The notes beneath the pieces were generated by a model. That model searched no databases. It was not told where the DNA came from and saw only the letters and a program-made list of their open reading frames with translations. Made by a program: the position numbers and the translations under genes. DNA of 64,000 nt from Qipengyuania vulgaris (GTDB lineage Bacteria; Pseudomonadota; Alphaproteobacteria; Sphingomonadales; Sphingomonadaceae): assembly GCF_009827325.1 (NCBI RefSeq), contig NZ_WTYC01000009.1:1-64000 (forward strand), read 5' to 3'. Of this stretch, positions 799-46,691 are shown one piece after another (within the stretch, counting starts at the first letter, position 1; each line of letters starts with the position of its first letter).

Positions 799-1060
799 GC
801 CGGGCCGGACCAGAGGTCGCCGGAAGGACGTAGGCGGACGAAGGAGAGTATGGCAAAACAGTCGGCGAGACGGGACCGGAAGAACCAGGGCTTTCCACCG
901 TGCTTCATCAGTACGCTGAGGGTGATGTGGTTCCGGTCCGCGAACTCCCATACGGGCCCGCAGCACGAAAAGCTGCACCAGGAGGCCGGACAGATGGCAG
1001 CATCCGACTACGTGCCAAACCTCTCAAAATACCGCTTGCATCCTGCGGGGCGTCCACAGA
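1..1060 (+). mobile_element. IS110-family insertion sequence, right-hand part
   Basis: The window opens inside an insertion sequence. A transposase frame open to the left edge ends at 798 and is followed by about 250 bases without a convincing gene, which fits the non-coding 3' flank of IS110/IS1111 elements. The right boundary near 1060 is a guess: the sequence after it carries fragments of a short repeat seen again at 3.7-4.9 kb. No terminal inverted repeat could be confirmed, and many IS110 members have none. The left end lies outside the window. Confidence 0.55.
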
Positions 1061-1064
1061 TGGA

Positions 1065-1095
1065 AAGCGGACATCCTTGGCTATCTTCGGGTCGT
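1065..1095. repeat. Possible degenerate copy of the 3.7-4.9 kb repeat
   Basis: The bases just right of the presumed IS end contain AAGCGGACA (1065-1073) and TCGGGTCGT (1087-1095). Both are core words of the repeat family at 3733, 4207, 4668 and 4902, but here they are in swapped order. The stretch from 1061 to the gene end at 1253 shows no convincing coding frame. The match is short and could be chance. Confidence 0.25.
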
Positions 1096-1252
1096 CACTA
1101 GAATGGCCGCCTTTCTCTGCAAATTCTGAAAGCAGACGCCCTCGGTTTAATAAAGCTTCACGCACACGAGTATTCGTCCCGAAAGCATTCACTACCGCAC
1201 CCCTCGTTTAGATACGCACTCGCGAAAAGACCCGACCGCGCGAAGGCTCTTT

Positions 1253-3490
1253 TCAAATGCCAATTATATGCGCCCATCGAATCAGAGGCAGTATCGAAGC
1301 GTAGTTATCGCTCCAAGGTTTTTCCAATGGCGGCTCCAGCTCGCCCCATTCTCCTATACCAGTGGCACTGAGTATGCGGTCTTGCGTAGGTTGATCCCGC
1401 GTTATCAGCACCCAATCCGATGCGACCTGGCCATTTGCCCGCCCGACCATGTCCTCGCGGATCGCCGCTGCGCACCCACACTCCAGCGCCGCAGCGGAAA
1501 GGACCGGCTGTAGCTCCAGAAAACGGTTTGAAATGTGTACGAGCAACGCACCATCGAATTTTAATGTGTTCAGGTAAACGCCGATCGCCTCGACCGTCAA
1601 AAGATGCAGTGGGATCGCATCGGAAGAAAATGCATCGACGACGAGAACATCGTATTGGTTCGCCGGTTCCTCCTCCAGCGCGATACGTGCATCGCCGATC
1701 ACAATTTCGCTTTCCGGCGCACAACGCGACAGGAAGGAAAATCTCCCCGTAGAGGAGTAGTTTAGTACTTCAGGATCAATCTCGTAGAACCGATAAGTTT
1801 GCTCCGGCCTGCGGTAACAAGCGACAGTCCCTACCCCTAGGCCGACTACGCCGACGCTGGAACGTTCACCGTAGAGATCAACCGTTCTATCAAGTACCAT
1901 GCCAACACCCGAACTGCGGCCGTAATAGGCAGTTGGCTCAAGTCGTTTTTTAGGATCGAGAAACTGTCGCCCATGCATGGTTGTTCCATGAATGAGTACC
2001 CTCTGTCCGACGGTCTCGTCATCTCGAACGTTGTAGATGCCAAAATAGCTGCGAGTGCGATCCCCCTTGGAATATGCATCTAAATGGCCGACAATGCCGA
2101 GCGCCGTCATGAGCAATACTAAGAACATAAGGAACTCAAAGCGGCTGAGTTTCACAAACATCGCAATTGCCGCCATCGCCAGAACTCCGGCGAGTGCGAG
2201 CATGGAGTTGTCGTAGAGATTGGCCCAAAATGCCAGAAGGCTAAGCGCGCTAAGGATTACAGCGGTACCGAAGACGACAAAAAGCCGTAGTTTCTTGCTC
2301 TGGACCAACCTCTCCTTCCAAGGGGGCGATTGACCTAACGGTAGTAGCAGCGCTGCGGCGAAGACCAGGATCGGGTGCTCCCACACCCAATCGAACAGAG
2401 CCGGAGCAATAAGAGCGGAAAACAGGCCGCCAACCACTCCACCAACTGACATTGCGAGATAAAAAAGAGTCAATTGTCCGGGCGGAGGGCGCAGGTCGAA
2501 CAGTTTAGCATGCAGGGCCACAGAGACTACAAAAAGCATTCCGACCGAAGCCAGCGCGACAACCAGCCCGTCACCCGATTGCGGAATCATCGCCATCCCG
2601 CCGACCACCAGCAAAATTGCAGGTGCAATCGTGGTAAAAAACCGGGCGAGTTGCCGATTTTCCGCGAACCCGGGCACATAGCTAAGAAGGTAGAGGCCAA
2701 GGGGGATAACCCATAGCAACGGCATTGCAAAAATATCAGTAGTGAGGTGGGTCGTGGTGGAAAGCATCATGCCCGAAGGCACAGCAGCTAAAGCGACCCA
2801 AATCAGTAATTTGCCCGGCGGCACAGGCGCAAGATTCTCGCCAAGTTGTGTTGATGCCGGCAAGTCTTGCGCATGCCACCGTGCCCAAGCCAAAAGTGAT
2901 ACAAGAACCAGCAACACTGCATAGCCGACTGACCAAACCATCGCTTGGGTTTCAAGGGTCAATAATGGTTCGATAATAAGGGGGTAGCTAAGCAAGCCAC
3001 TAAAACTTCCAAGGTTTGATGCCGCATACAACGGATAGGGGTCTCCGGCGTCAGGGTCAGCGCCATACCAACGCTGAACCAGAGGGGCCTGCGCGGAAAC
3101 GAGAAAAAACACCGGGCCAATACTTGCTAAAATAAATGCAGGCACCCAAAACACTTCTAGCCCCGCGCCAAAACTGGGTATGTCCACAAGAGTTATCGGC
3201 AACGTCAACCCAGCCATGACCAAAAGAGCTAGTTGCAAGCCTATTTGAAGGCGCACCGGCAATCGCCTGATCGCATGAGCATAGGCATAGCCGCCGAGCA
3301 GCAGCGCTTGATAGACGAGCATGGCACTGTTCCAAACGTTTGGCGCGCCGCCAAGCCTCGGGAGAACCAATCGAGCCACCATCGGCTGTACTAGAAACAG
3401 CAAGAAGCTTCCCGCAAAAATTGCGGATACAAATAGAGCGCGGCGTGAGGAATTCAAATACGATGCTCCTGTTGATCGCAGTGTAGCCAT
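1253..3490 (-). CDS. Fused MFS-like membrane / spermidine synthase-like protein
   Basis: 745 aa in two parts. The N-terminal two thirds (about residues 15-470) is a chain of hydrophobic helices, beginning at the LFVSAIFAGSFLLFLVQPMV segment. The C-terminal part (about 515-745) has the Rossmann fold of spermidine-synthase-like enzymes: a glycine-rich nucleotide-binding loop (GVVGLGVGTVACY), an acidic residue in FYEIDPEVL, and VVDAFSSDAIPLHLL. Proteins of this fused type are widespread, but their substrate is not established and true polyamine synthesis should not be assumed. The gene stands alone between an IS110 element and an accessory stretch, and its base composition is less GC-rich than the neighbouring aroC-ruvB block, which suggests transfer. 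Confidence 0.8.
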   Translation of the reverse strand: MATLRSTGASYLNSSRRALFVSAIFAGSFLLFLVQPMVARLVLPRLGGAPNVWNSAMLVYQALLLGGYAYAHAIRRLPVRLQIGLQLALLVMAGLTLPITLVDIPSFGAGLEVFWVPAFILASIGPVFFLVSAQAPLVQRWYGADPDAGDPYPLYAASNLGSFSGLLSYPLIIEPLLTLETQAMVWSVGYAVLLVLVSLLAWARWHAQDLPASTQLGENLAPVPPGKLLIWVALAAVPSGMMLSTTTHLTTDIFAMPLLWVIPLGLYLLSYVPGFAENRQLARFFTTIAPAILLVVGGMAMIPQSGDGLVVALASVGMLFVVSVALHAKLFDLRPPPGQLTLFYLAMSVGGVVGGLFSALIAPALFDWVWEHPILVFAAALLLPLGQSPPWKERLVQSKKLRLFVVFGTAVILSALSLLAFWANLYDNSMLALAGVLAMAAIAMFVKLSRFEFLMFLVLLMTALGIVGHLDAYSKGDRTRSYFGIYNVRDDETVGQRVLIHGTTMHGRQFLDPKKRLEPTAYYGRSSGVGMVLDRTVDLYGERSSVGVVGLGVGTVACYRRPEQTYRFYEIDPEVLNYSSTGRFSFLSRCAPESEIVIGDARIALEEEPANQYDVLVVDAFSSDAIPLHLLTVEAIGVYLNTLKFDGALLVHISNRFLELQPVLSAAALECGCAAAIREDMVGRANGQVASDWVLITRDQPTQDRILSATGIGEWGELEPPLEKPWSDNYASILPLIRWAHIIGI

Positions 3491-3590
3491 ACCTAGACCA
3501 TAGGTCTTCCTGCAGCGTTGCTATGGTAAAACTCAATACTTTCGGGTTAATGCATGCTTGGCTATATAATTCGGCGCATTGAACCAAGCG

Positions 3591-3728
3591 ATGCATCAAT
3601 ATCCGGGATGCCTGTCTTGGGAGGATGCGATCGATCTTATCCGTCCTGCGAACGATTTGTTGGCGGACGAACTTGCGGAATTTTACGACAGGTGCTTGGT
3701 TCACAATCGGTCTCGCCCACAATGTTAG
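3591..3728 (+). CDS. Possible small protein of 45 aa
   Basis: A short frame encodes a plausible amphipathic protein with the core WEDAIDLIRPANDLLADELA and no long hydrophobic stretch. A TTG at 3579 in the same frame is an alternative start. No good Shine-Dalgarno sequence was seen. The frame ends five bases before a 33-bp repeat element (3733-3765). I do not recognise the family. Protein-like composition is the only support, and the rest of the 3491-3844 gap shows nothing else coding. Confidence 0.3.
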   Translation: MHQYPGCLSWEDAIDLIRPANDLLADELAEFYDRCLVHNRSRPQC

Positions 3729-3732
3729 CGGA

Positions 3733-3765
3733 GTCCGCAATCGGGTCGTAAGCGGAATGTCCGGT
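3733..3765 (+). repeat. Short intergenic repeat, copy 1
   Basis: A 33-base element that starts GTCCGCAATCGGGTCGT and ends with an imperfect inverted repeat around AAGCGGAATGTCCGGT. It matches the copy at 4668-4700 at 27 of 33 positions by eye, and shares its first 17 bases exactly with 4207-4223. It lies directly after the small frame ending at 3728. Confidence 0.65.
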
Positions 3766-3844
3766 TTCAGCGCAGAATATCAGATAGCGGCTGGTCTGTT
3801 TTTGGCGTGATCTTCGAGAACCGCGAACGACCGGTTAGGGGTGG

Positions 3845-4180
3845 TTAGCTGACCTCAGACCTGTAGCCTTCTGCCCATTCTCTGAAGACCCCCATAACTG
3901 CCGAAACGTCGGTCGGACCACACGCCGCTTTGAAGCGCACGCCATCTGCCGAGGCAATCCACCAGCTTCCCCGCTCACGCCATTCGTCCAAGTCGCTAGC
4001 TACTTCACCGTGCATGGACTCGAACCATCGTCCTTCTAAAACCGTCTCGCGCAGATCGATTTCTACAGTCCACCCCGGATTGTCCAAGGTTTCGATCTTG
4101 ATCCCGTAGGAATGCTCCCAGTCGTTATTGCATTCACGAACATACCAGTTCGTCAGCCATTCAAGATTATCTTCAGTCAT
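3845..4180 (-). CDS. Imm53-family immunity protein
   Basis: Small cytoplasmic protein of 111 aa that looks like the Imm53 immunity family of polymorphic toxin systems; such proteins protect the producer from a cognate toxin. Visible signatures are WLTNWYVRECNNDWEHSYGI at the N-terminus and TLDNPGWTVEIDLRET after it, with Trp-rich segments later (RGSWWIAS). The frame extends upstream to 4303, but that extension runs through a repeat copy (4207-4223) and reads like random sequence, so the ATG at 4180 (MTEDNLEW) is chosen. No toxin gene is seen in the flanking 5 kb, so it appears to be an orphan immunity gene. The family call is from memory of the motif pattern. Confidence 0.7.
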   Translation of the reverse strand: MTEDNLEWLTNWYVRECNNDWEHSYGIKIETLDNPGWTVEIDLRETVLEGRWFESMHGEVASDLDEWRERGSWWIASADGVRFKAACGPTDVSAVMGVFREWAEGYRSEVS

Positions 4181-4206
4181 GACTGTTTGTCGCCCAACTT
4201 GCGAGC

Positions 4207-4223
4207 GTCCGCAATCGGGTCGT
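4207..4223 (+). repeat. Short intergenic repeat, copy 2 (left half)
   Basis: GTCCGCAATCGGGTCGT is identical to the first 17 bases of the element at 3733. The right half is diverged (CGCTCTCCGCC follows in place of AAGCGGA). It sits 27 bases upstream of the Imm53 start codon, between that gene and the secreted protein gene at 4248-4640. Confidence 0.6.
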
Positions 4224-4247
4224 TCGCTCTCCGCCTGCGACTCCAGT

Positions 4248-4640
4248 TCACCGATTTGGGGCGTCAGCGGGATATGGGTAACCCACCGCAAACATCGTTC
4301 CACCTTCCGATGCTGGCCAGAACGAGATCAGAAACTTCACCTCGGTGTCACACATGGTGGTTGACCATGTCTCGTAGGTAACTTGTTCTTTTCCCACTCT
4401 ATAGGCTTCGCCTGGCAGAAAGTCCTCCGGGTGGACAGCCGCCTCGACTGCGGAGATTACACCACAATCGTTTCGCGCTTGGCCTATAAGCTGGATCTGG
4501 CGAAGTGTGTCCTTGATAAGATCAAGGTTAGCCGTAGTCCGACCAGTAAATCGGAGTTGCTCAGCCATTGCTGGAGTGGAGCAAACCGTCAAAGTGGCTG
4601 CAATCGCGAAGGTGGCGCGAGCGATACATGCTAGTCCCAT
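4248..4640 (-). CDS. Small secreted protein of unknown function
   Basis: 130 aa with a clear signal peptide: a hydrophobic stretch (ATFAIAATLTVCS) followed by an AMA cleavage motif near residue 26. The mature part, about 104 aa, has two Cys residues (in NDCGVIS and TTMCDTE) that could form a disulfide in the periplasm. I do not recognise the family. It reads in the same direction as the Imm53 gene 68 bases downstream, so the two may be co-transcribed. The presumed upstream region contains the repeat copy at 4668-4700. Confidence 0.65.
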   Translation of the reverse strand: MGLACIARATFAIAATLTVCSTPAMAEQLRFTGRTTANLDLIKDTLRQIQLIGQARNDCGVISAVEAAVHPEDFLPGEAYRVGKEQVTYETWSTTMCDTEVKFLISFWPASEGGTMFAVGYPYPADAPNR

Positions 4641-4667
4641 AGCTGCGGTATGCCCTTGTAATTCAAC

Positions 4668-4700
4668 GACCGCAATGGCGTCGCAAGCGGACAGTCCGCT
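4668..4700 (+). repeat. Short intergenic repeat, copy 3, with perfect palindrome
   Basis: A 33-base element of the same family as 3733-3765. Its right end AGCGGACAGTCCGCT (4686-4700) is a perfect inverted repeat with 7-base arms around a single base, able to form a cruciform or serve as a dimeric protein site. It lies 28 bases upstream of the start of the secreted protein gene, on that gene's 5' side. Confidence 0.65.
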
Positions 4701-4755
4701 CTAGGCACCCCTCATGCCGAGAAATTCATTCACCAGTGGGGTGGGAAGCGGCCAT

Positions 4756-4875
4756 TCAACCGAAATAAACAATCGCGGCAATGGATGCGACAAGCACTAG
4801 GGCGATTCCGAGGAGTGCCCATTGCACTTTCAACGGCAAAGTCTCGAAGATCCAGTCAAAGAGGCTATCCAGCAT
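4756..4875 (-). CDS. Small single-helix membrane protein, 39 aa
   Basis: A complete short frame (ATG at 4875, TGA at 4756-4758). It has an amphipathic start (MLDSLFDWIFETLPLKVQ) and one strongly hydrophobic helix (ALLGIALVLVASIAAIVYFG) reaching the C-terminus. This is a typical small inner-membrane protein pattern. It lies between two repeat copies (4668-4700 and 4902-4934) just downstream of aroC on the same strand. No strong ribosome binding site was seen, and I do not recognise a family. Confidence 0.45.
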   Translation of the reverse strand: MLDSLFDWIFETLPLKVQWALLGIALVLVASIAAIVYFG

Positions 4876-4901
4876 TTACTTAAGGTACATAACGAGCATT
4901 T

Positions 4902-4934
4902 TTCCGCAATGTCGTCGTTAGCAGACAGTCCGCT
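4902..4934 (+). repeat. Short intergenic repeat, copy 4
   Basis: Diverged copy of the 33-base family: CCGCAATGTCGTCGTTAGCA followed by GACAGTCCGCT. Most positions match copy 3 (4668-4700), and its palindrome has one mismatch. Its right end touches the stop codon of aroC (4933-4935, minus strand), so it lies exactly where a terminator of aroC would be expected. Confidence 0.55.
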
Positions 4935-6000
4935 AGCCGCACTGTGCCCTATGCAGCAGCTTGTGATCCGCCAGCACCAGCGCCATCATCGCCTCGACTA
5001 CCGGCGTTCCGCGGATGCCGACGCAGGGGTCGTGGCGGCCCTTGGTGCGGACTTCGGTCGCCTCGCCCTGCCGGTCGATACTGGCAACCGGGGTCAGGAT
5101 CGAACTGGTCGGCTTGAAGGCCACGCGGCAGACCACCGGCTGGCCGGTCGAGATGCCGCCCGCGATGCCGCCCGCGTGATTGGCCGCGAATTCGGGGCCG
5201 TCCGCTCCCGGTGACATGGCATCGGCATTCTGCTCGCCGCTCAGGCGCGCGGCGTCGAAACCGTCGCCGATCTCCACGCCCTTGACCGCGTTGATGCTCA
5301 TCATGCCGGCCGCAAGATCGCTGTCGAGCTTGGCGTAGATCGGCGCGCCCCAGCCTGCGGGGACACCTTCCGCCACGCATTCGACCACCGCGCCGAGCGA
5401 TGATCCCGCCAGCCTCGCATCGTCGACCAGCGCTTCCCACCGCTTCGCCGCCTCCGCATCGGGACACCAGAAGGGATTGCGCGCAATCTCCTCGCGGTCG
5501 AAATTGGCCGGGTCGATCCGGTGGCCGCCGATCTCCGCGACATAGGCGAGGATGCTTACCTCCGGAATGACCAGCCTGCCGATCGCGCCTGCCGCAACCC
5601 GCATCGCGGTCTCCCTCGCGCTCGATCTCCCGCCGCCGCGATAGTCGCGGAAGCCGTATTTCGCGTCATAGGCATAGTCGGCATGGCCGGGGCGATAGGT
5701 GTTCGCGATCTCCGAATAATCCTTCGACCGCTGATCGGTGTTCTCGATCAGCAGGCTGATGGGAGTGCCCGTCGTCTTTCCTTCGAACACGCCTGACAGG
5801 ATGCGGACCTCGTCCGGCTCCTTGCGCTGGGTGGTGAACTTGTTCTGCCCCGGCTTGCGCGCATCGAGGAAGGGCTGGATGTCGGATTCCGCCAGCGCAA
5901 TTCCGGGCGGGCACCCGTCGACCACCGCGCCGATGGCCGGGCCGTGGCTCTCGCCCCAGGTGGTAAACCGCAAAGCCCTTCCGAATGTATTCCAGCTCAT
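4933..6000 (-). CDS. aroC: Chorismate synthase
   Basis: Last enzyme of the shikimate pathway: converts 5-enolpyruvylshikimate-3-phosphate to chorismate using reduced FMN. 355 aa, full length for the family. The N-terminal FxTxGESHG signature is present ([14 protein letters not shown], residues 12-25), as are [13 protein letters not shown] near residue 120-135 and the C-terminal [21 protein letters not shown], which holds conserved Arg and His residues of the active site. The neighbours are unrelated: a repeat-rich accessory stretch follows, and ruvA is divergent. The long divergent gap (6001-6411) probably carries promoters for both. Confidence 0.97.
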
Positions 6001-32152: not shown

Positions 32153-32226
32153 TGCCCCGTCGTCTAATGGTAAGACTACGGACTCTGACTCCGTCAATTG
32201 AGGTTCGAATCCTCACGGGGCATCCA
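32153..32226 (+). tRNA. tRNA-Gln (anticodon CTG)
   Basis: Cloverleaf read directly: acceptor TGCCCCG pairs with CGGGGCA; the D-arm has GTCT...AGAC around AATGGTA. The anticodon stem ACGGA/TCCGT holds loop CTCTGAC, giving anticodon CTG (reads CAG). The T-arm TGAGG-TTCGAAT-CCTCA is complete, and CCA is encoded. 74 nt including CCA. Confidence 0.97.
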
Positions 32227-33207: not shown

Positions 33208-34947
33208 TTATTCTATGAGATACCGAGCCTTCACCGTAAAAGTTGAGGAGGGCGCGAATGCACCTGAAGGTTTCAAGCGGAAGTTTGTGATTCCACTGTC
33301 GCAGCCCGCCGCGTCAAGCGTTGGCACGTAGTCCCAGGTCACGCCTCCATCGGAGGAGAACTCAAGGTCATCAGTAGCTGACGACAGACCTGTATAGGAG
33401 AATGCTAGTCCGGAGGTCGGTGAACCGTCCACGAAGGCGATCGGACCCGTCGATCCCATTTCGACCAAGCAAAGTGCAGCTTGTGGCGGACCACTATCTG
33501 ACACAATCACAGAGTTCGCATCCAGAGCGACTGCGTTCGGGTTGGAAACTCCAATCGTGTACTCAACGATGGCGCCAGGTATTGGGAATGGGCGTGTGGT
33601 TCCATTCTTGGGGTCGCTAAATACGGAACTAACCTTTGTGGCGGTTATCGGCTGGACCGGACTTTGCGAGTATGTCGCTTGTGCAATCGGTGTGGATGCT
33701 AATCCGAACACACCACGAGCAGAATTTGTGAAGCTTCCAGCATTTGGAGGTCGTGAAACAGTATATCGGAGTGTGACTGATCCGCCGGCTCGGACGAAGT
33801 ATGAGCTCCCCTTTTTACCGATGAATTCTAACGTGCCGGTGCTTCCGGCAACAGGGATTTGACTGGAATTTGAAGTTTGGACTTCGCTGGAGCTGGTTAT
33901 GGCAACAAAGCTCATCCCTGAGGGAAGGGTGTCGACTATCCGATCCACTATTGCGTCGTGGACTGACGGGTTGGAGATTGTGACCGTGTAGGTAAGATTT
34001 CCTATCGCCCCGACGATCCCTATCTCCTGATCGATAGTTTTTGATATTTGGAAGGGATTTGTCGCACCTGGAAAGCTGATCGAAACAACGCTTGCATCAT
34101 TGGTGCCGGTGTATTTCAGCTGAGTTCCGCTAGTTTGAACCGCATATGGTTTCGCCGTCGTAGATCTGCCTGCGCACTGATACGTGAAGTAATATCGTAC
34201 GGTGATATGGTAGCCATTTCCGGGCTGCTTGGCTGTCTGAATAACGTAGATCCTGTTGGACATACCGGCAGGCGCGCCAGCGACGTTGGATGATCTCACT
34301 TCCGATCCAACCATTTGAAAGCACTCTGCGTCAAAAGATTGGAGCGCACTGGGTTGAAGAAGGAACTCGTCCCCGCGATCGGAACCGCCAAAATCGTATT
34401 TGGCGTCAAAGTATACAGTCTGCCCAACCACAGCGCCCGACCCCAAGGACGACCCGATCAATTGCCCGCCAGCATTGGCACTGATCGAGTTGGCGATAAC
34501 GAGGCTAAAATTCGAGAGCTGAGTTCCGGCGCTAGAGCTCATTGTAACTGTTGCGTTGGCACCCGCACCAAAGCTGCAGCCGTAACCAGTAAACCAATAA
34601 ACTGCGATACTCTCGCCCGGATCCAATGCTCCGATATACTGGGTCGCTGGCTGCCCGCCAGCCAAGTACACATTCGAGTTCAAACCCCCGAGCGTGACGG
34701 TGGCATTCGTTGTTCTGCTTGTAGAAGTGTTGCGAACGATCCCGCCAACGTAAGCAGCTGTAGGCCCTTCTGCAGGACAATTGTTGGAATCCGCAGTCAG
34801 CTTCTGGAGGTTGGTGCTGCTGTTGCCTGAGCGCAATTCGAACGAAAGGCTGGCTGACGCAGCTGTCGCAAAAAGCCCCATCACGAGCAGGGCCAAAAAT
34901 CCGCGGAGAGCCGACAGAAAGAAGATGGGCAAGTTCAACACGTTCAC
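33208..34947 (-). CDS. DUF11-repeat exported protein (operon gene 5)
   Basis: 579 aa with a signal peptide (about 1-33: GFLALLVMGLFATAASAS). The N-terminal half is Ser/Thr/Asn-rich with several Cys. Two DUF11-type modules follow: about 300-420 (LTYTVTISNPSVHDAIVDRI, then TLPSGMSFVA) and about 440-545 (KVSSVFSDPKNG, PIPGAIVEYTIGVSNP). DUF11 modules are Ig-like building blocks of surface proteins. The start is GTG, overlapping the TGA of the barrel gene (GTGA) after a GGAAGG ribosome binding site, so translation is coupled to it. Base use is markedly less GC-rich than in the flanking housekeeping genes. Confidence 0.85.
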   Translation of the reverse strand: MNVLNLPIFFLSALRGFLALLVMGLFATAASASLSFELRSGNSSTNLQKLTADSNNCPAEGPTAAYVGGIVRNTSTSRTTNATVTLGGLNSNVYLAGGQPATQYIGALDPGESIAVYWFTGYGCSFGAGANATVTMSSSAGTQLSNFSLVIANSISANAGGQLIGSSLGSGAVVGQTVYFDAKYDFGGSDRGDEFLLQPSALQSFDAECFQMVGSEVRSSNVAGAPAGMSNRIYVIQTAKQPGNGYHITVRYYFTYQCAGRSTTAKPYAVQTSGTQLKYTGTNDASVVSISFPGATNPFQISKTIDQEIGIVGAIGNLTYTVTISNPSVHDAIVDRIVDTLPSGMSFVAITSSSEVQTSNSSQIPVAGSTGTLEFIGKKGSSYFVRAGGSVTLRYTVSRPPNAGSFTNSARGVFGLASTPIAQATYSQSPVQPITATKVSSVFSDPKNGTTRPFPIPGAIVEYTIGVSNPNAVALDANSVIVSDSGPPQAALCLVEMGSTGPIAFVDGSPTSGLAFSYTGLSSATDDLEFSSDGGVTWDYVPTLDAAGCDSGITNFRLKPSGAFAPSSTFTVKARYLIE

Positions 34948-37900
34948 CTTCCAATACCAAGAAAGGAAAAGGTGTCAGCATCGAACTTCATGCGGATGCT
35001 GGTGTAGAGTCCTTCGTCGGTATTTCGGGCGGCAGAAAAGTCCTCATCACGAAAGCCCCGCAAGTTATATCCTACAGTGAGGAGGACATCATTTTTGGGA
35101 GAGAAACCCAACTCCGGTCCGAACGAGAAGCTGGTGTAGCCGTCGGTAAGGTTACTGCGGACTGTTGCAAGACCACCGATCTCGAATCTCTCGCCAATTC
35201 CAATCCGTGCGTCGACCCCAGCAAGGAGAGAGAAACCTTCAATCGAAAGACTCTCAATCGCATCAAAATTGTAGCGCCCACCAACAAAGAGACCAAACTC
35301 GCTGCGGTTCATCGAACGACCTTCTTCAATATCGTTGCGACTAGGAGACCAATTGGTAGAAACACTCCCGATCAGACGACGCGACTTGGCCTCTCCATTG
35401 ACGATGAGCGCGCTACGACCTGAGGGTCCTGTTTCCCCATCAATCGCCCCAGTCACGCTATCGCTGCGATATTCGAGTTTCGCGAGAAAGCCGAAATCAG
35501 AACTCTCAGGGCGATATGCTGCAGCGATGCTTCCGTCAAAGATCTCCGATTCCGACCCCGTATTGCTCTCCGCCCGGGTCCAGGTGAATCCCGAACCTAG
35601 AACGCTGCCTTCGCCCAGCTGGCGAATAGCGCCGAACGTCAGGCCAGTGCGGTCCGATTGTTCACCGTCCCGGTGTTCGCCCCGAGCGTTCGCAGCCCAG
35701 CGGTCTTTGCGCCAGCTAGCTCCAAGCGTGATTGCGGCAAAGTCCTCAAAGAGCTGCCCATCCTGACCCAGATGCCCCCCACTGGAAACAGGGTGCTGCG
35801 GGTTGATGACCTTGCTCTGGTCGACACCGCCGAGCTGACGATTTACGTCGATTGTTCCGTCGAGTGTCAGGTGGCTCGACAAGGTAAAGCTTTGAGCGAG
35901 GCCAAAGGCCGCATAGCTTCGCGCTCCCAATTCCGAAATCGATTGCTGGCCGAGCATGCCTGTTGCACGAGCTCCGGCCCAAGGGCTCACTTCAACGCCG
36001 CCCTGCAGCGTCTCGGCGTCGATGGCTTTCCCTTCGGCAACCTCGTAGGTGCCGATGAGGCGGACGTCTTTCGCCACAGAGTACCTGGCACCAACCCGGT
36101 GCCGGGTAGGCAGGTCAATTGATTCCGTCGCTGAAAGTGCGATGCTGGTGCTAGCATTGATCTCCAGGCGATTGTCTAGGAGCCGATGACTGGCACCACC
36201 TTCGAGAACCGTGGAGGACCCACTCGTTCCATCGCGATAACGATCGTCAAAATGTGCCAGACCCAGGCGCAGGCTCGTCGACTGCTCGCGATAGCCCGCC
36301 TGAATCTGAATGGCGTTACGGCGAGCATCATCGGTCAGGCTGCTATCGTGCCATGCACTGCCAGTGACTCCGAGAGTCTCGGAAATCGAATACCGTGCAT
36401 CGACTCCCATCTTTCGGCGTCCCTGCTCGGCGCCGTTTTGTTGCCCCACACCGAAGTCAGGTTCGACCGTACGCGCAAAGGCGATGACGTCCAGATCACC
36501 GGTGTGATGTTCTGCTTCGACCTGCCACGCCGCAGAAACTACGCCGTTCTTAACACTGGCAGCCGCCTCGGAACGTAGTTCGGTCGAACTACCGAGCCGC
36601 GCCTTCACATCCACTGCGAGCATTTCGGTCCGCGCGCCATCGCCTTCGTCAGTGACGAAAGTGCTGCCCAGACGTAGATCACCGTCCGCAACCAGAACAT
36701 CACTCCGGACACCAGCATTCAGTTGGCCGGTGCTACGCGGATCCTGTGTCTCGTAATCGATGACGATGAATTGCGGATTCAGATCGAAATCTCGACTCAG
36801 GACGGGCTCTTTGAAGCGGATTGTGCCGGACAGGAGGTCCAAATCGTAATCGATAAAGCGCGTCAATTCCCGGCGTTCAACGATGATTTCCGAGCGGAAA
36901 CGGTCTCGTATTTCGAGAGCCACGGTCTCGGAGTTCGGTACGATTGCGCGGCTTGAAAGGCGATAGGGACCAGTGAGACCATTTCCCTGGATTTCGTCGC
37001 GCCGAAAACGGGTTTCGATATCCGCAGCAAAGCCCTGTACGTGTAAGGCACCAAAACGTCCTTCGGCTTTCACACCAGTCGCAGCCCGGTCGTAACGCGC
37101 AAGGTTTGTCTGGTTGAACCCGGTGCGAAAATCCCCGTAGATCGCATAGAAAGTGCTTGTTTCTACGCGAAGGTAGAGCTTCTCACGACTGGCTGCGTCG
37201 AAGCGACGCGCCGATCCGTCCGCGAAAACAGTGTAATAAGCATCGGGATCAATGCTTCCTTGGAAACGCTGCTCGTCCTTCTGTTTCGCGCTATCATATG
37301 CGGCGGTGAGCAGGAATTTTCCGAGAACCTTGCCCTTAGCATAGAATGCAACCCGTCCTTCTTGACCGAGATCGCTGTCAAAGGACCCGTTCACCTCCAT
37401 GTTGTCAGCGATGGTGCGCGCGCCAAGCGACGCTTCCGCGAGGCCGACCAAGGTCCAATCCGTGTCACCAGGTACAACCCAAGCTTCGATTTTTTCGCGG
37501 CGGGTGATCTTGCCGTCGGTGAAAGTGAAATCCAAATCGAGCTGGCCGCTCACAAGAGTGGGGGAAAGTTCTATCAAGGCAACGCCGTCATCCCCTCGGA
37601 TCGTCCAAGTAGGCTTTGCTCCGGAAAGACCGCCAAGCTGGCGCAATTGCATTGCCTCAAGAGCCTCAGCACTCTCGTAGGGGGCATTGATCTCAACCGC
37701 GCCGGATACGCCGCTGCGCACTGGCTGTCCCTTCCGGTCCGTAATCCGAACGGCAACAACGGACTTTGTGGTTCCGTCGGCCACTAGGCGCGACTGGTCG
37801 GCAACAAGGCTCACGTTCGATGGAGCACCTGAAAAGTGGACGATCCGCTCAAATTGGTTTGAAGAGGAACCGTTCGCGTTCGACACGTCGGCAATGAGCC

Positions 37901-39983
37901 GCGTTCGCTCTGATTTTAGCGGAATGCCGCGCCACACGCTTATCGCATAGGAACCATCGGAAGCTTTCGTAACGCCATCGAAGCTCAGTGGATCGACAAG
38001 CTCATTGTTCGCGCGAAGTTCTACCTGCTCGCCGATTTCGTGTCGCACGGCAACCCGAACTGCGGGAGCTCTAGGATTATGATCCACGGCGGGAAAAATG
38101 AAACCGGCTGGACCGTCGCCAACCGTTGCCCAAGCGATCTCGGCACCTGAAGCTTCGGCATCACCGAGTACTTCGTCGTCCTGATCATCGGCTCTATCAT
38201 TCCAACCATACGGCAGTTCTGCATGGAAGTCTGCGACGACAAGGCTGCCACCTTGGCCTCTTACGAAGCGGGAATTTGCCGAGCCGCCGTTCGCAGTCGA
38301 ACGAGCGCAGAGCACGAACTGACCTGATATTGGAAGGGTCTGGTCCTGCGCCTGCACCACGTGCGTTCCGGGAGCAATCCCTTCGAAATGGTATCGACCT
38401 TCCGCATCGGTTACCGCAAAACTTCCGTCCTCCAGCATGACCCGGACACCCGCTATGCCACGGCGTCCTTCTCTGTTGCAGGAGCCGGAAGTGATCCGGC
38501 CCATTACTACCATCTTGTTGCCGATAGTTTCCTTGCTGATACGAAGGTTGGCACTGGCAACGACCGCCGCGCCGCGACCGTCGCTTGCACTTGCGCGATT
38601 GACAGCAAAGCCTTCGGGAGCATCTGCGCGAACTGCCATTGCATAGGTAATGCGGTGGCCTGCGCCAGCTGCAATTTCGTCGAAACGTACTTTGAGCGTC
38701 TTTCCATCTTCGGCAATGCTGACGCGCTCTTCGGCGCGCTCGCCGTCGACCCTGATGCTATCCGGTCGGAGGCGGAGCCATTCGGATGGAGTGTCAGTTA
38801 TGACCACATTCCGCTTGGACCCCATTACATCGGGATTGCTGACCGTGATGCTGTAGAAGACGACGTCTCCAGGTAACGCGATCTGGCGCGACACGCTCTT
38901 ATCGAGACTTACGTTCACAAGCGGCCGGTCAAGCGGTATATCGAACTGGGGTATAGCCGATGAAGTGACTGAGAATTGGCTCTGATACGAGGCTTCGGTA
39001 ATAACAAAAACGCCGCCTGTGGGGCGGGTAAAAGCCACCAGCTCTTTTTCTGAAACGGTCGATGGACCGGAATATGGTGAGGGCGGACTGACTTCGACCA
39101 GAAAAGACCCGCTAGCGACTATGGGGAAGCGATACTCTCCGGGCAGCATCTCATAAGTGCGCCCGGCACCATCCGTGACGGGCTGCCCACTCGTGACACT
39201 TGAGGGCCAGTAGGTCACGCCATCTTCGGCAAAAACTTCTGCAGGAAGTCCTGATGCGGCATTAACCAAGGTTAGGCGCGCGCCGTCGATGATCTGCCCA
39301 TTCTGGCTGTCGAAAACGAAACCGGAAGTTTTGTTTAAAACGTTGACGATGGCGGTGACGACGAGGGCGGCCCGTGAATCGTGATAGGTTACACTGATGT
39401 TCTCCCCCGAGTGCAGACTGAGAATGCAGTCGCCCGCAATTGGCTGCGGAGGGATTGACGCGGTTTGAATACTTCCGGCAAATTCACCAGAATTTTCAGA
39501 AGTTTCGAAAACGGTCAGTCTTTCCTCATCTCCCGAGGGAGTAGTCAGGACGACTTCGATGGAGTCGCGGGAGGAAGGAGACAGGTTCGCCGCAGGAGCA
39601 GAGACATCGAAGAAAAGTGTCTGTCCGATGCGTATCGAGGTCGCCGGCGAAACCGAATAGCTCGAAGGTGCTGCAGCACCTACAGAGGTGGATGGTGTCA
39701 AAGTACTTGAGCCGCACAGTGACGGCGAGAATTGGAGCGTCGTGCTGCCGGCTATATCTGGCAGATAAGTTCCGATGGCGGCCTGAGCCGAGGCAACCGC
39801 AATGCGGACCTCATTCGAACGGGCGGTCTCGATTACACCGCTGGCTCGCCACTGCGCTTCAGCAATGTTTGTAATAGTCTGAGATACAGGCGCATCTTGG
39901 GCATAGGCCGGAATCGCGACGAAAAGCAGTAGCACCCCGAGGAATGCTGCTGATAAATCGCTGAGATTCCGGCCCAATACCAT
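34944..39983 (-). CDS. Giant DUF11 / SdrD-B-like / Big_1-like protein with predicted outer-membrane barrel (operon gene 4)
   Basis: 1679 aa. Signal peptide 1-29 (ending AIPAYAQ). In order: a short N-terminal module (30-65) shared with genes 1 and 3; an Ig-like region (about 100-210); an SdrD-B-like segment (about 215-330). Next come a DUF11 module (about 355-480: VVFYSITVSNPDVMGSKRNV) and a second SdrD-B/carboxypeptidase-regulatory-like module (about 490-550: MLEDGSFAVTDAEGRYHFEG). A Big_1-like domain (about 720-840: LVADGTTKSVVAVRITDRKG) precedes the last part. From about 845 to the end, many alternating amphipathic strands with aromatic girdles suggest a beta-barrel of TonB-receptor or autotransporter size. 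The last residues are SFLGIGR, without the usual terminal Phe. Probably a surface anchor or export pore; no known function. Confidence 0.8.
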   Translation of the reverse strand: MVLGRNLSDLSAAFLGVLLLFVAIPAYAQDAPVSQTITNIAEAQWRASGVIETARSNEVRIAVASAQAAIGTYLPDIAGSTTLQFSPSLCGSSTLTPSTSVGAAAPSSYSVSPATSIRIGQTLFFDVSAPAANLSPSSRDSIEVVLTTPSGDEERLTVFETSENSGEFAGSIQTASIPPQPIAGDCILSLHSGENISVTYHDSRAALVVTAIVNVLNKTSGFVFDSQNGQIIDGARLTLVNAASGLPAEVFAEDGVTYWPSSVTSGQPVTDGAGRTYEMLPGEYRFPIVASGSFLVEVSPPSPYSGPSTVSEKELVAFTRPTGGVFVITEASYQSQFSVTSSAIPQFDIPLDRPLVNVSLDKSVSRQIALPGDVVFYSITVSNPDVMGSKRNVVITDTPSEWLRLRPDSIRVDGERAEERVSIAEDGKTLKVRFDEIAAGAGHRITYAMAVRADAPEGFAVNRASASDGRGAAVVASANLRISKETIGNKMVVMGRITSGSCNREGRRGIAGVRVMLEDGSFAVTDAEGRYHFEGIAPGTHVVQAQDQTLPISGQFVLCARSTANGGSANSRFVRGQGGSLVVADFHAELPYGWNDRADDQDDEVLGDAEASGAEIAWATVGDGPAGFIFPAVDHNPRAPAVRVAVRHEIGEQVELRANNELVDPLSFDGVTKASDGSYAISVWRGIPLKSERTRLIADVSNANGSSSNQFERIVHFSGAPSNVSLVADQSRLVADGTTKSVVAVRITDRKGQPVRSGVSGAVEINAPYESAEALEAMQLRQLGGLSGAKPTWTIRGDDGVALIELSPTLVSGQLDLDFTFTDGKITRREKIEAWVVPGDTDWTLVGLAEASLGARTIADNMEVNGSFDSDLGQEGRVAFYAKGKVLGKFLLTAAYDSAKQKDEQRFQGSIDPDAYYTVFADGSARRFDAASREKLYLRVETSTFYAIYGDFRTGFNQTNLARYDRAATGVKAEGRFGALHVQGFAADIETRFRRDEIQGNGLTGPYRLSSRAIVPNSETVALEIRDRFRSEIIVERRELTRFIDYDLDLLSGTIRFKEPVLSRDFDLNPQFIVIDYETQDPRSTGQLNAGVRSDVLVADGDLRLGSTFVTDEGDGARTEMLAVDVKARLGSSTELRSEAAASVKNGVVSAAWQVEAEHHTGDLDVIAFARTVEPDFGVGQQNGAEQGRRKMGVDARYSISETLGVTGSAWHDSSLTDDARRNAIQIQAGYREQSTSLRLGLAHFDDRYRDGTSGSSTVLEGGASHRLLDNRLEINASTSIALSATESIDLPTRHRVGARYSVAKDVRLIGTYEVAEGKAIDAETLQGGVEVSPWAGARATGMLGQQSISELGARSYAAFGLAQSFTLSSHLTLDGTIDVNRQLGGVDQSKVINPQHPVSSGGHLGQDGQLFEDFAAITLGASWRKDRWAANARGEHRDGEQSDRTGLTFGAIRQLGEGSVLGSGFTWTRAESNTGSESEIFDGSIAAAYRPESSDFGFLAKLEYRSDSVTGAIDGETGPSGRSALIVNGEAKSRRLIGSVSTNWSPSRNDIEEGRSMNRSEFGLFVGGRYNFDAIESLSIEGFSLLAGVDARIGIGERFEIGGLATVRSNLTDGYTSFSFGPELGFSPKNDVLLTVGYNLRGFRDEDFSAARNTDEGLYTSIRMKFDADTFSFLGIGR

Positions 39984-39997
39984 GGCGCATTCAGCGA

Positions 39998-41035
39998 CTA
40001 GTCGATCGTCGCCTGGAAAATCACAGTACGCGTAGTGCCCGCTGCAATGTCCTCGAGCGAGCCCGTTATCGTTCCTGCGTTATATAAACCGTCCGTGGTC
40101 GCATCATCGAGGTCGCAGGTCGGACCATTCATGCGAACTACTGTGGCGGTATCGAAATAGGAGATGCCTGTCGGCAGACTGTCCGTGACGGTAACACCGC
40201 TCGCTGTCGCACTACCCGCTGCGTTCGAAACAGCGATGCAGTATTCGATTACGGCGCCCGGAATGGCCTTGGGATTAGCAGTGCCGCTTACCGGATCGCT
40301 AAGGACAGTACTTGTTTTTGCGACGCTTAACGCTGCCGCCGAAACGACGTAGTCGTCTGCAGCAGAGAAGGCGCCATCATACTCTCCGTCAGTGAGGCCC
40401 TCCGCATCTGCAAGTACGGTGTCGACAGCATTGACAGTGTTGGTATCCGAATTTTCTAGAAGTGCTCCCTGGGAGCCTGAGGAACCGCCAGCATGAGCCT
40501 GGGCCGTGAGTACTACGGTCGCCACGTCGCCGGTTGCCCTACCGAGTGGGATATCTGACCTAATTTGGACGCTTACTGAGGCGTCAGCGGCCAGTTCGTC
40601 TATGAAAGTTGCCTCGACAAAGGTGCCGTCCCCGTTCCGATCTATGAGGATCGTGACGTTGCTTGTGTCGAAATTATCGGTTCCCGTGATGCCACCAGCG
40701 CCGCCAGCCTGCTGTGCAGCGGTAAGTGCGAAGTCTAGTGTATCATTCGAGAGGTTGGTCACGGAAAAGGTCGTGATCCGCGAAACCGCGCCAGGTGAGA
40801 CAATTGTCTGCTCCCCGCCGGATTCGGCCACAGTGACGTTGACCTTGCGGTCGACAACGAATTCATCCGTTGCCGTTTCGTCGTTTTGACTGACCCCGCC
40901 GACCGAATAGCTCACCGATACGCTATTCTGAATTGTCTGGCCGGCGTTCGTGCCTTCCGCAAAGGCTGGACTAGCGCCGAGAGCAATGAGCGGTAAGGCG
41001 CTCACCGCACCCAGCAGCTTGCTGGTGCGTTTCAT
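39998..41035 (-). CDS. DUF11-type exported protein (operon gene 3)
   Basis: 345 aa; signal peptide MKRTSKLLGAVSALPLIALG ending SPAFA. The mature N-terminus (NAGQTIQNSVSVSYSVGG) matches the shared module of genes 1 and 4. A middle Ig-like domain is rich in Asp, Gly and Thr (IDRNGDGTFVEATFID resembles a calcium-binding loop). The C-terminal DUF11 module starts SVAKTSTVLSDPVSG and PGAVIEYCIAVSN and ends RTVIFQATID. Very acidic, no membrane segment: a secreted or surface subunit. It lies 14 bases before the barrel gene, so it is certainly in the same operon. Confidence 0.85.
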   Translation of the reverse strand: MKRTSKLLGAVSALPLIALGASPAFAEGTNAGQTIQNSVSVSYSVGGVSQNDETATDEFVVDRKVNVTVAESGGEQTIVSPGAVSRITTFSVTNLSNDTLDFALTAAQQAGGAGGITGTDNFDTSNVTILIDRNGDGTFVEATFIDELAADASVSVQIRSDIPLGRATGDVATVVLTAQAHAGGSSGSQGALLENSDTNTVNAVDTVLADAEGLTDGEYDGAFSAADDYVVSAAALSVAKTSTVLSDPVSGTANPKAIPGAVIEYCIAVSNAAGSATASGVTVTDSLPTGISYFDTATVVRMNGPTCDLDDATTDGLYNAGTITGSLEDIAAGTTRTVIFQATID

Positions 41036-41106
41036 GGTATTGAATCCCCTGCTATTGCAGCTGCGCGTTACCCCGCCCGCAGCCTTAGGCGGCTACGTTC
41101 AGCTCT

Positions 41107-41577
41107 TCAGCGAACGATCCCGTAATAATTGAGAGTGCCTTTCGCCCCTGGATCAAGGCGTTCTAGCGTCCAGCGAATGTGAGTGACATCGCGCGCTTCA
41201 GCTGCGCGGGCTCCTGCTTCAGCATCCTCAATCTTAATGGCGCCAAGGTCGCCGAAGGTGGCGCCTCCATCGACAGAAACTTGAAAAGCTGCATCAGCCT
41301 CAGCGAGTCGAATTGCCGTAGGCAGCGGATTGGTGACCACGAAGTTTTCTACGGGTTCGCCGCCCGAATTCTCGTAGCTCGTGGTGAACAGCAGTCTATC
41401 ACCTGGCACAACGCCTTCGGGGGCGGCGAGAACCTTTTGCGCTTTGCCATCCTCGGTCACAACCCGTTCGAGTTGCACTATCCCGCTCAGGACGACGGTG
41501 TCCTTTGCCGTTGCCGGAACGCTTGCGACGAGGGCGGCAACGGAGAGCACGGATGTTTTTATGAGGTTAGAGAACAT
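41107..41577 (-). CDS. Small exported Ig-like protein (operon gene 2)
   Basis: 156 aa from the ATG at 41577, preceded by GAGGAAAA. Signal peptide MFSNLIKTSVLSVAALVASV, cleaved after ATA. The mature part is a single module: DRLLFTTSYENSGGEPVENF, VVTNPLPTAIRLAEADAAFQ and a C-terminus GTLNYYGIVR. The N-P-L-P-x-x-I pattern is that of a single DUF11 unit, so it may be a monomeric version of the domain found repeated in its neighbours. The in-frame extension to 41721 overlaps gene 1 and is rejected. Spacing is 31 bases from gene 1 and 71 bases to gene 3. Confidence 0.8.
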   Translation of the reverse strand: MFSNLIKTSVLSVAALVASVPATAKDTVVLSGIVQLERVVTEDGKAQKVLAAPEGVVPGDRLLFTTSYENSGGEPVENFVVTNPLPTAIRLAEADAAFQVSVDGGATFGDLGAIKIEDAEAGARAAEARDVTHIRWTLERLDPGAKGTLNYYGIVR

Positions 41578-41608
41578 GTGATTTTCCTCGAGGTTCAGTC
41601 GTGCGATC

Positions 41609-42586
41609 TCAGTCGATCGTGACGTCGAAAGTAACGGTGTAGCTGGCACCGGCCGCGGCCGAGCCGACATCAACCGTGATACCAGAATTATTCGCCTCCC
41701 CCGCGTCCGCGTCAGATGCATCTGTTAGAGGCGCTCCATCGAGCGTGAGCGTGGCAGGTTTGTACGTCGTGCCCGCGGGGATGGCGTCCGTCACGTTAAG
41801 ATCAGTGATTGAGCCGCTACCGCCGACATTGGCCACGATAGTGAAGGTAATCGTTGCATCGGGAACGGCTTCGGATCCTCCGAACGGATCGATAACGCTT
41901 GCTGTCTTGATCAGACTCAGAGCCGCGAGGCGTGCGATTAGTGAGCCATCGACGTCTGCATCAGCGCTTGTTGTGCCAACGACTGCGTTGCTTCCGTTGA
42001 CCCCTTGGCCCGCAAAGCTTGTACCGGGCGCGCCTGCGCCGGTCACGGCCTGAGCGACAAGCTTGACTGCGCTGCTATCGCCATCGGTGACACCTGCGGG
42101 CGAGTTGACCAATACAAACACCGTGAGTGCGGCATCTGCGTCGAGAGAAGGAGTAGGCGCGCCCGCACCCAGAACCACGTCAACACCGTCATCATAGATG
42201 CCGTTGCCGTTGGTATCGTAGGCAAGCCCATCAACCGTTACGTCGAAATCATTTCCCGTCACTGCAGCGTCAGCGGTTAAGTTAAAGGCTTCGGGACCAT
42301 TGCCGGTATTAGTAATCTCGAAGGTGAGCACAGCAGAGGCGTTGCCGATCGCAACCGCGCTGCCGTCCTGCCAGGCTGCAGTAACATCAAGAAGCTCGTC
42401 GACCTGCACGGTGACAGTATTTGAATCTACCGTCTGCGGCGTGCCGTCCGCATCAGAGAATTCAGCGGTAGCGGTATTCTCGATAAGCGTGCCTGCAGGC
42501 ACGCCGTCGGCCATCGCTGGCGATGCCACGAGAAAGGTTGCGAGGACCAGCGGACTGGCGGCGAACTTGAGACCCATGTGTTCCAT
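41609..42586 (-). CDS. DUF11-type exported protein (operon gene 1)
   Basis: 325 aa; signal peptide to ASPAMA, then the shared N-terminal module (AGTLIENTATAEFSDADG). The middle domain carries YDTNGNGIYDDGVDVV, a DxDxG-type calcium-loop-like stretch. The C-terminal DUF11 module has SLIKTASVIDPFGGSE, VTDAIPAGTTYKPATLTLDG and ends YTVTFDVTID. Strongly acidic and Lys/Arg-poor, as expected for a surface protein. ATGs at 42586 and 42577 are both possible. First gene of the operon; the presumed promoter lies in the 0.7 kb gap upstream. Confidence 0.85.
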   Translation of the reverse strand: MEHMGLKFAASPLVLATFLVASPAMADGVPAGTLIENTATAEFSDADGTPQTVDSNTVTVQVDELLDVTAAWQDGSAVAIGNASAVLTFEITNTGNGPEAFNLTADAAVTGNDFDVTVDGLAYDTNGNGIYDDGVDVVLGAGAPTPSLDADAALTVFVLVNSPAGVTDGDSSAVKLVAQAVTGAGAPGTSFAGQGVNGSNAVVGTTSADADVDGSLIARLAALSLIKTASVIDPFGGSEAVPDATITFTIVANVGGSGSITDLNVTDAIPAGTTYKPATLTLDGAPLTDASDADAGEANNSGITVDVGSAAAGASYTVTFDVTID

Positions 42587-43922: not shown

Positions 43923-44005
43923 GTTCTCCATCGAGGCTCGGTGCCATTGCGACCTTGGTCCTTACCGACCCGCTGGACGCGTCTCCTCCAAACGCCTACA
44001 CGCTT

Positions 44006-44095
44006 GTCATCCCCGGGGAGCCATGAGGCTGAGAGGGCGGTTGAAGTCCGCCGACCCGTCGAACCTGAACCGATTAGCATCGGCGGAGGGAGTGG
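44006..44095 (+). promoter_or_regulatory. TPP riboswitch (THI element)
   Basis: All core blocks of the thiamine-pyrophosphate aptamer are present in order: CCCCGGGGAGCC, GGCTGAGAGGGCGG, GACCCGTCGAACCTGAACCG, then GCATCGGCGGAGGGAG. The CUGAGA and ACCUGA blocks are the pyrimidine- and pyrophosphate-binding parts. It lies about 50 bases before the membrane-protein gene at 44144 and controls the operon that includes thiC. High TPP should turn expression off. Confidence 0.92.
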
Positions 44096-44143
44096 GCGGC
44101 CACCGCGTGAAGTCCGCTCTCCCGCCTCGTGGAGAGATTACAT

Positions 44144-44542: not shown

Positions 44543-46691
<2,149 letters not shown>

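Follow-up and report, generated by a model that had tools for sequence, protein, structure and literature searches.

A DUF11 domain divided among the proteins of a five-gene operon in Qipengyuania vulgaris, and the outer-membrane-anchored fibre that it may build

What do five DUF11 proteins encoded in one operon of a Gram-negative bacterium, one of them a giant, make together? The question is raised by positions 33208-42586 of a 64,000-nucleotide stretch of Qipengyuania vulgaris DNA (contig NZ_WTYC01000009.1, positions 1 to 64,000; hereafter the window), where five minus-strand genes, here called a, b, c, B and e in order of transcription, follow one another at gaps of 31, 71, 14 and -4 nucleotides (nt). 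A sequence-only reading of the window had given the same genes and spacings, which our coordinates confirm, and had proposed that the giant protein B anchors or exports small DUF11 subunits in a surface layer or fibre. We found by sequence comparison that a, b, c and e each end in an incomplete DUF11 domain, and that the strand missing from these domains, which bears an Asn, is resembled by the mature N-termini of a, c and B; the incompleteness of these domains and the way in which the pieces fit are new relative to the earlier reading. We propose that the operon probably encodes an adhesive fibre that is anchored in the outer membrane and assembled by donor-strand complementation of the split DUF11 (CLIPPER) domain. 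Each acceptor, itself without its last strand, would be supplied with that strand by the mature N-terminus of another protein. The literature searched, outside which lie most subscription journals and all bioRxiv preprints, described neither such a gene set nor a DUF11 domain that is split.

Incomplete C-terminal domains and complementary N-termini

All five proteins match Pfam DUF11 (PF01345), and a search of the whole genome gave five matches up to E 1, one per operon gene. As full proteins, c and e score above the Pfam cut-off and a just at it (20.0 in the genome search, 24.6 in a scan of the five proteins), its isolated C-terminal domain being also above it; the matches in b and B are below. 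The earlier description of repeated immunoglobulin-like (Ig-like)/DUF11 modules needs correcting for three of the proteins: b has a single DUF11 module, and a and c each have two different Ig-like modules instead of repeats.

In a and c, the C-terminal DUF11 match ends at Pfam position 84 of 114, and the mature N-termini of a, c and B open with a stretch that resembles the end of DUF11 (GTLIENTATAEF in a, GQTIQNSVSVSY in c and SQTITNIAEAQW in B). When such a donor segment was joined to the acceptor domain, the Pfam score of c rose from 34.8 bits alone to 39.3, 40.1 and 41.0 bits with the donors of B, c and a, respectively, and that of a rose from 25.8 to 29.2 bits (25.5 bits with the reversed donor). 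The joined matches extended to profile position 97-108; in a control in which a piece of a was repeated, the first match stayed at 85. For comparison among relatives, length-filtered and deduplicated sets of 77 a, 79 b, 79 c, 84 B and 78 e proteins were used. A profile made from the N-termini of a and c alone matched the N-terminus of 68 of the 84 B proteins (independent E-value, i-E, below 1) and gave no match in the b proteins. Its eight matches in e (i-E up to 1) all fell on the Asn strand that ends a complete inner DUF11, with Pfam domain bounds checked for four of the eight.

The joining tests were extended with a broad profile of 57 complete inner DUF11 domains from open reading frames (ORFs) of at least 440 amino acids (aa) in 20 distant loci, domains within 30 residues of the C-terminus being excluded; distant relatives belonging to this very system may have contributed to the training set. 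Joining gained 7-9 bits with the donors of a and c and 3-4 bits with that of B, as against -1.2 to 0.7 bits with shuffled donors. Each pair was also scored by whether the donor was the best of 21 when set against 20 decoys, which were either shuffled donors or real windows from the same proteins. Against shuffled donors, the acceptor of a ranked its own donor best in 66/77 cases and that of c in 63/76, the acceptor of c did so for the donor of a in 68/76 and for its own in 65/79, and the acceptor of e for the donors of a and c in 58/69 and 60/71. Against real windows, the corresponding counts were 75/77 and 71/76 for a, 68/76 and 71/79 for c, and 66/69 and 63/71 for e, and the acceptor of b ranked the donors of a and c best in 74/76 and 74/78. 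Pairs without a score in the real-window test, where the locus had no such donor in the set or no score was obtained, numbered 1 for acceptor a with donor c, 3 and 1 for acceptor c with donors a and B, 9, 7 and 5 for acceptor e with donors a, c and B, and 3 and 1 for acceptor b with donors a and c. The acceptors of a, b, c and e alone end at a median model position of 97-98 (ranges 97-99 for a, 83-147 for c, 45-131 for e and 49-98 for b), and the joined ones at medians of 130-135. An N-terminal donor strand together with an incomplete acceptor, the arrangement by which chaperone-usher pili are recognised, was found here by sequence, and less strongly with a narrower profile that is described below.

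Residues of the isopeptide triad and protein b

DUF11 is widespread in Gram-negative surface proteins, and a DUF11 (CLIPPER) domain was recently solved in which Lys715 and Asn806 of a single chain are bonded, with Asp748 as the catalytic residue (PMC12617251). In the complete inner DUF11 of B, Lys362, Asp397 and Asn462 are all kept in 84/84 proteins. In the split domains the triad is divided, with Lys and Asp in the acceptors of a, c and e and Asn in the donors of a, c and B. Lys227 and Asp267 of the a acceptor are kept in 99% of the 77 proteins and Asn37 of its donor in 77/77, where I35, A39 and A41 are also conserved in 100%; in c, donor Asn37 and acceptor Lys240 and Asp285 are each kept in 79/79; Asn39 of the B donor is kept in 82/84, and Lys438 and Asp484 of the e acceptor in 77/78 each. 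The best-conserved donor residues stand mainly at alternate positions, as expected for a strand with one buried face. Since none of the three residues has been lost, a Lys-Asn bond from one subunit to the next probably seals each joint. More tentatively, the whole could be a self-welding Gram-negative fibre, in which donor Asn and acceptor Lys and Asp form a spontaneous bond at each joint without sortase or PapD-type chaperone, and b is a reversible holder or terminator.

The module of b carries Asn in place of the catalytic Asp in 78/79 proteins, and at the presumed Lys position has Lys in 48/79 and Arg in the window. We infer that b is a non-linking acceptor, either cap or chaperone: with Asn at the catalytic position, it could protect donor strands until they are used, or could terminate a chain and yet not be welded to it. 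The gap between b and c contains a predicted, conserved H-type RNA pseudoknot; of 41 intergenic stretches 58-80 nt long, 32 have it. Its stems change in a paired way (for example CCATCC/GGATGG, GGTCGC/GCGACC and CCTGCG/CGCGGG), and in each of the 32 at most 1/60 shuffles was as good, with stem and loop limits that were set after the alignment had been viewed. The pseudoknot has no Rfam match up to E 1, and it may set the dose of c relative to a and b.

The proposed head-to-tail fibre and the readings that compete with it

With a head and an acceptor and no donor, e can serve only as a tip; a and c can chain because each has both donor and acceptor; and B, having a donor only, is placed at the base. 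The fibre would have the order e-(a/c)n-B and lie at the cell surface, with e at the tip, a and c in the shaft and B at the base, where its C-terminal barrel would fix it in the outer membrane. Since the parts of the split domain are complementary, we prefer a head-to-tail fibre to a layer, which narrows the earlier choice between the two, and the earlier view of the giant protein as the anchor remains the most likely one. By sequence, the C-terminal acceptor is common to the e proteins and the head differs. The 78 heads fall into a linked group of 59 and groups of 8, 5 (that of the window, with L038, L054, L079 and L085) and 2, and four stand alone. Pfam scans of nine e proteins gave P_proprotein with DUF11, CshA_NR2 with SpaA_3, DUF6923 with Big_9, and GEVED; five of the nine had DUF11-type matches only, or none. 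A constant joint with a swappable head fits an adhesive tip.

A number of observations weigh against this proposal or parts of it. In the Pfam joining tests, the reversed-donor control also stretched the match to 102, though without a score gain, and joining the donor of a to e produced a DUF7507 match alone (22.2 bits), with none to DUF11 up to E 0.1. The donor of B was the weakest with the broad profile, being best of 21 in 25/77, 26/78, 27/73 and 27/79 pairs against real windows and in 25/77, 29/79 and 31/73 against shuffled donors. A narrower profile of 22 inner domains of e, which was tried first, performed less well: it placed the own donor of a in the top 2 of 21 in 53/77 cases and that of c in 22/79, where about 8 are expected by chance, and the donor of B joined to e in 1/73. 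A reverse search of 7780 ORFs with the 22 inner strands of e filled its first nine places with N-termini of a and c, at E-values of only 1 to 9 and with the tenth place elsewhere in a. In nine of twelve distant loci with b, checked by eye, the donor Asn is present in 15/16 subunits and 6/9 barrels, and missing in the remaining one subunit and three barrels. The joint is barely recognisable in two e proteins with lone heads, L069 and L103 (24 and 31 bits). Among the 65 loci described below, e follows B in 54, precedes a in 5 and is not on that strand in 6. No b was seen in 6 of the 20 distant loci (L199-L201, L203-L205); at least L199 and L203 begin at a contig end, so that genes before the barrel could be missed there, and this branch is probably a related but different system. 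The predicted barrel superposes poorly on known ones, with TM-scores of 0.03-0.33 among the best Foldseek matches. Finally, a and c hold both halves of the domain and could close on themselves.

This last point is the basis of a reading in which a and c are circularly permuted monomers, the N-terminal strand closing their own C-terminal domain, and no fibre is formed. In its favour, a model of c alone (predicted local distance difference test, pLDDT, 91.6; predicted template modelling score, pTM, 0.79) places the donor as a high-confidence strand at 34-41, with a mean pLDDT of 95 over residues 31-50; being a model of one chain, it does not distinguish self-closure from exchange. We consider permuted monomers very unlikely, since at least three of the proteins need partners, B for its lone donor and b and e for their lone acceptors, and the four core genes stand together in all 65 loci. 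Donor-strand assembly of the split domains without covalent bonds between subunits, the triad being kept for packing, is only somewhat unlikely. It agrees with b, which, if an acceptor, works without the Asp, and it is opposed by the conservation of Lys, Asp and Asn, each kept at 98-100% in separate proteins just as in the complete DUF11 of B. The model of c otherwise resembled Ig domains of integrin, adaptor and antigen I/II proteins in a fold search (Z up to 9.2), in which families missing from the lists were not counted as evidence. Against solved structures, a profile of c gave no convincing relative, its one match being at E 0.95, and the acceptor domain of c gave no match up to E 1.

The remaining alternatives concern B. 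The strand-rich C-terminal region noted by the earlier reading was recovered in a model of the last 844 residues (64 sequences; pLDDT 75.6, pTM 0.73), which has 37 strands of at least 8 residues; we read it as a predicted large barrel, possibly plugged by an insert that follows the first strands. The best Foldseek matches were mostly large outer-membrane barrels (SlpA, LptD, SprA, BtuB, PapC and FimD), led by Deinococcus SlpA, a surface-layer (S-layer) protein, at E 1.2e-8, with SprA of the type IX secretion system (T9SS) at E 6.8e-6. The SlpA match suggests that B could be a giant porin or S-layer-like barrel on which a, b, c and e form a surface layer and no chains. We regard this as the most doubtful of the alternatives, because superposition on SlpA is poor (TM-scores 0.23 and 0.21), complementary ends predict linear joints and some e heads resemble adhesins. 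VIA-align in turn ranked four FimD entries first (Z 16.4, 15.9, 14.9 and 14.9; best alignment 335 residues, root-mean-square deviation 8.9), over an usher pore with its plug, which would agree with a role for B beyond anchoring, as an usher-like pore that assembles and secretes the subunits. This, too, is unlikely, as unrelated barrels reached Z 13-14 and other usher entries only 12.2-13.7, B has no Pfam usher match up to E 1, and its strands far exceed the 24 of an usher. By sequence, B had no convincing match among solved structures (best E 0.24). Its conserved cysteines, C90 and C186 in 84/84 and C502 and C559 in 20/20, suggest disulfides.

A self-welding fibre, if real, would correspond in nature to the tag/catcher pairs made by protein engineering, and its relatives would span the phylum. 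If the domain is truly split, fibres are built in many environmental bacteria by a chemistry so far undescribed for them, a giant outer-membrane protein family of unknown role would be given a function, and the donors and acceptors could be developed into tools for protein ligation.

Distribution, known systems and surroundings of the operon

The genes of the operon form a conserved, co-inherited set, with relatives elsewhere in the phylum. From 211 relatives, the named-genome scan kept the best 80, of which 15 lay on contigs that were too short; in all 65 loci with enough flank, a-b-c-B occurs in the same order on one strand, with split reading frames in two (L082 and L126). The sequence-only reading had treated the genes as one system, and in this close family their homologues are not found alone with unrelated neighbours. 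With the 1679-aa B as query, 23/99 genomes matched, its own included and all from the same genus. A profile of the C-terminal half of B matched 81/297 genomes of the order, in 28/77 genera and all in its own family, a few of them by weak partial matches only; across the phylum it matched 42/397 genomes, 11 of them in that family. The 20 distant loci include 12 with a b-like gene and one to three DUF11 subunits beside the barrel, and 2 that are cut by contig ends. In L200, L201, L204 and L205, very large ORFs (1834-2791 aa) adjoin the barrel, and these loci yielded DUF11 domains. In L085, a contig of a metagenome-assembled genome labelled Woeseia, the barrel shares 59% identity with the one in the window, and e has the same rare head type; either transfer or misbinning of the contig would account for this.

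Chaperone-usher pili (type 1, P and archaic type) are built from subunits with an N-terminal donor and an incomplete Ig-like acceptor, with an acceptor-only tip, a two-ended shaft and an outer-membrane barrel encoded in the same operon. The present operon shares this logic of donor and acceptor, tip and shaft, and barrel, but its subunits are of DUF11 type, its barrel protein itself has a donor strand and it has isopeptide residues. We do not file it as a chaperone-usher member because no usher match and no PapD-like gene occur among the five; the search for a PapD-like chaperone (up to E 1) covered these five proteins, the rest of the genome being unsearched for one. Autotransporter/intimin barrel families gave no Pfam or NCBIfam match up to E 1, only the passenger domain Invasin_D3 below cut-off, and no LPXTG-type sorting motif was read at the C-termini of the five proteins. 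The very large outer-membrane barrels of Deinococcus SlpA/SDBC and T9SS SprA are like the predicted barrel of B in kind but superpose weakly overall, and we know of no split DUF11 partners for SlpA or SprA. CLIPPER domains of fibrillar adhesins are of the same family, with the triad at a spacing similar to that in the complete DUF11 of B; the bond there lies within one domain and chain (PMC12617251), whereas here the Asn strand is at the N-terminus of a, c and B, separate from the acceptor domains. Threads of the archaeon Sulfolobus (Saci_0406) likewise combine donor-strand complementation with a proposed inter-subunit isopeptide bond, but there the bond links Asn57 to the N-terminal amino group of a subunit two places further along (PMC9715654), and the archaeon has no outer-membrane barrel. 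The grappling-hook-like filaments of Litorilinea GhlA also consist of DUF11 domains, but of 49 in one giant chain rather than split among small subunits (PMC13319060). Two further candidates were set aside: cargo of the type XI secretion system, whose matches are mainly to DUF1194, with DUF11 as a domain accompanying it (PMC12282271), and F-ENA appendages, where DUF11 is found only in an anchor protein of Clostridia (PMC11952670).

The features of the operon are collected in Table 1. Sec-type signal peptides were judged by eye at all five N-termini, in agreement with the earlier reading; the ORF of b is readable from 41721, and the start at 41577 was chosen because it yields a signal peptide. 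Of the domains named earlier in B, SdrD_B and Big_1 were found in Pfam below cut-off, as was Invasin_D3, and CarboxypepD_reg was above it.

Table 1. Positions, in window coordinates, of the five genes, their donor and acceptor parts and other elements
Feature	Position	Strand	Remarks
Gene a (325 aa)	41609..42586	-	signal peptide, donor strand at the N-terminus, Ig-like domain in the middle, incomplete DUF11 as C-terminal acceptor
Donor segment of a (residues 28-62; Asn37)	42401..42505	-	completes DUF11 when joined
Acceptor domain of a (residues 219-325; Lys227, Asp267)	41612..41932	-	last strand missing; Pfam DUF11 positions 12-84 of 114
Gene b (156 aa)	41107..41577	-	acceptor-type DUF11 domain only; Asn83 at expected catalytic Asp; no donor found
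H-type RNA pseudoknot (predicted), b-c gap	41060..41092	-	upstream of c ribosome-binding site; 32/41 intergenic stretches
Gene c (345 aa)	39998..41035	-	donor strand, middle Ig-like domain, acceptor DUF11 with C266 and C307
Donor segment of c (residues 28-62; Asn37)	40850..40954	-	modelled strand 34-41
Acceptor domain of c (residues 231-345; Lys240, Asp285)	40001..40345	-	Pfam DUF11 positions 10-84 of 114
Gene B (1679 aa)	34944..39983	-	donor strand, N-terminal domains, one complete DUF11, CarboxypepD_reg/SdrD_B, Ig-like domains, C-terminal barrel (predicted)
Donor segment of B (residues 30-63; Asn39)	39795..39896	-	completes DUF11 less well than donors of a and c
Complete internal DUF11 of B (residues 356-485)	38529..38918	-	Lys362, Asp397, Asn462; Pfam positions 2-97 of 114
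C-terminal barrel region of B (residues 836-1679)	34947..37478	-	predicted model; fold searches
Gene e (579 aa)	33208..34947	-	swappable head and C-terminal acceptor; GTG start
Head of e (residues 33-424; DUF11 at 300-410)	33676..34851	-	by Pfam; head type in 5/78 e proteins
Acceptor domain of e (residues 425-579; Lys438, Asp484)	33211..33675	-	conserved Lys and Asp

The genome comprises 3.23 Mb in 19 contigs. The G+C content of the operon (53-57%) is lower than that of 10-31 kb and 44-51 kb (61-67%), in line with the difference from the flanks noted by the sequence-only reading, but low values are not unique to it, since 1-5 kb (53-60%) and 51-64 kb (56-61%) are low too. The low stretch at 1001-5000 (about 53-54%) holds a 745-aa ORF (1253-3490, minus strand) with no Pfam match up to E 0.001. 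In the first 20 relatives (18 kb fetched each), none of the compared flank genes of the window (20-33 and 43-56 kb) was found except for one weak match, so the operon stands at differing sites; this would fit acquisition, but other parts of the window are equally low in G+C. To the left of the operon lie genes for an FtsJ-like methyltransferase, a Ppx/GppA protein and a tRNA-Gln (32153-32226). Integration at this tRNA was considered and set aside: no second copy of its 3' end, with up to 3 mismatches, occurs in the window, and a tRNA-targeted island is therefore not shown. On the right stand a TetR-type regulator and a thiamine pyrophosphate (TPP) riboswitch at 44004-44108 (56.6 bits, gathering threshold 54.3), which lies upstream of a 638-aa ORF (44573-46489) that we take to be thiC.

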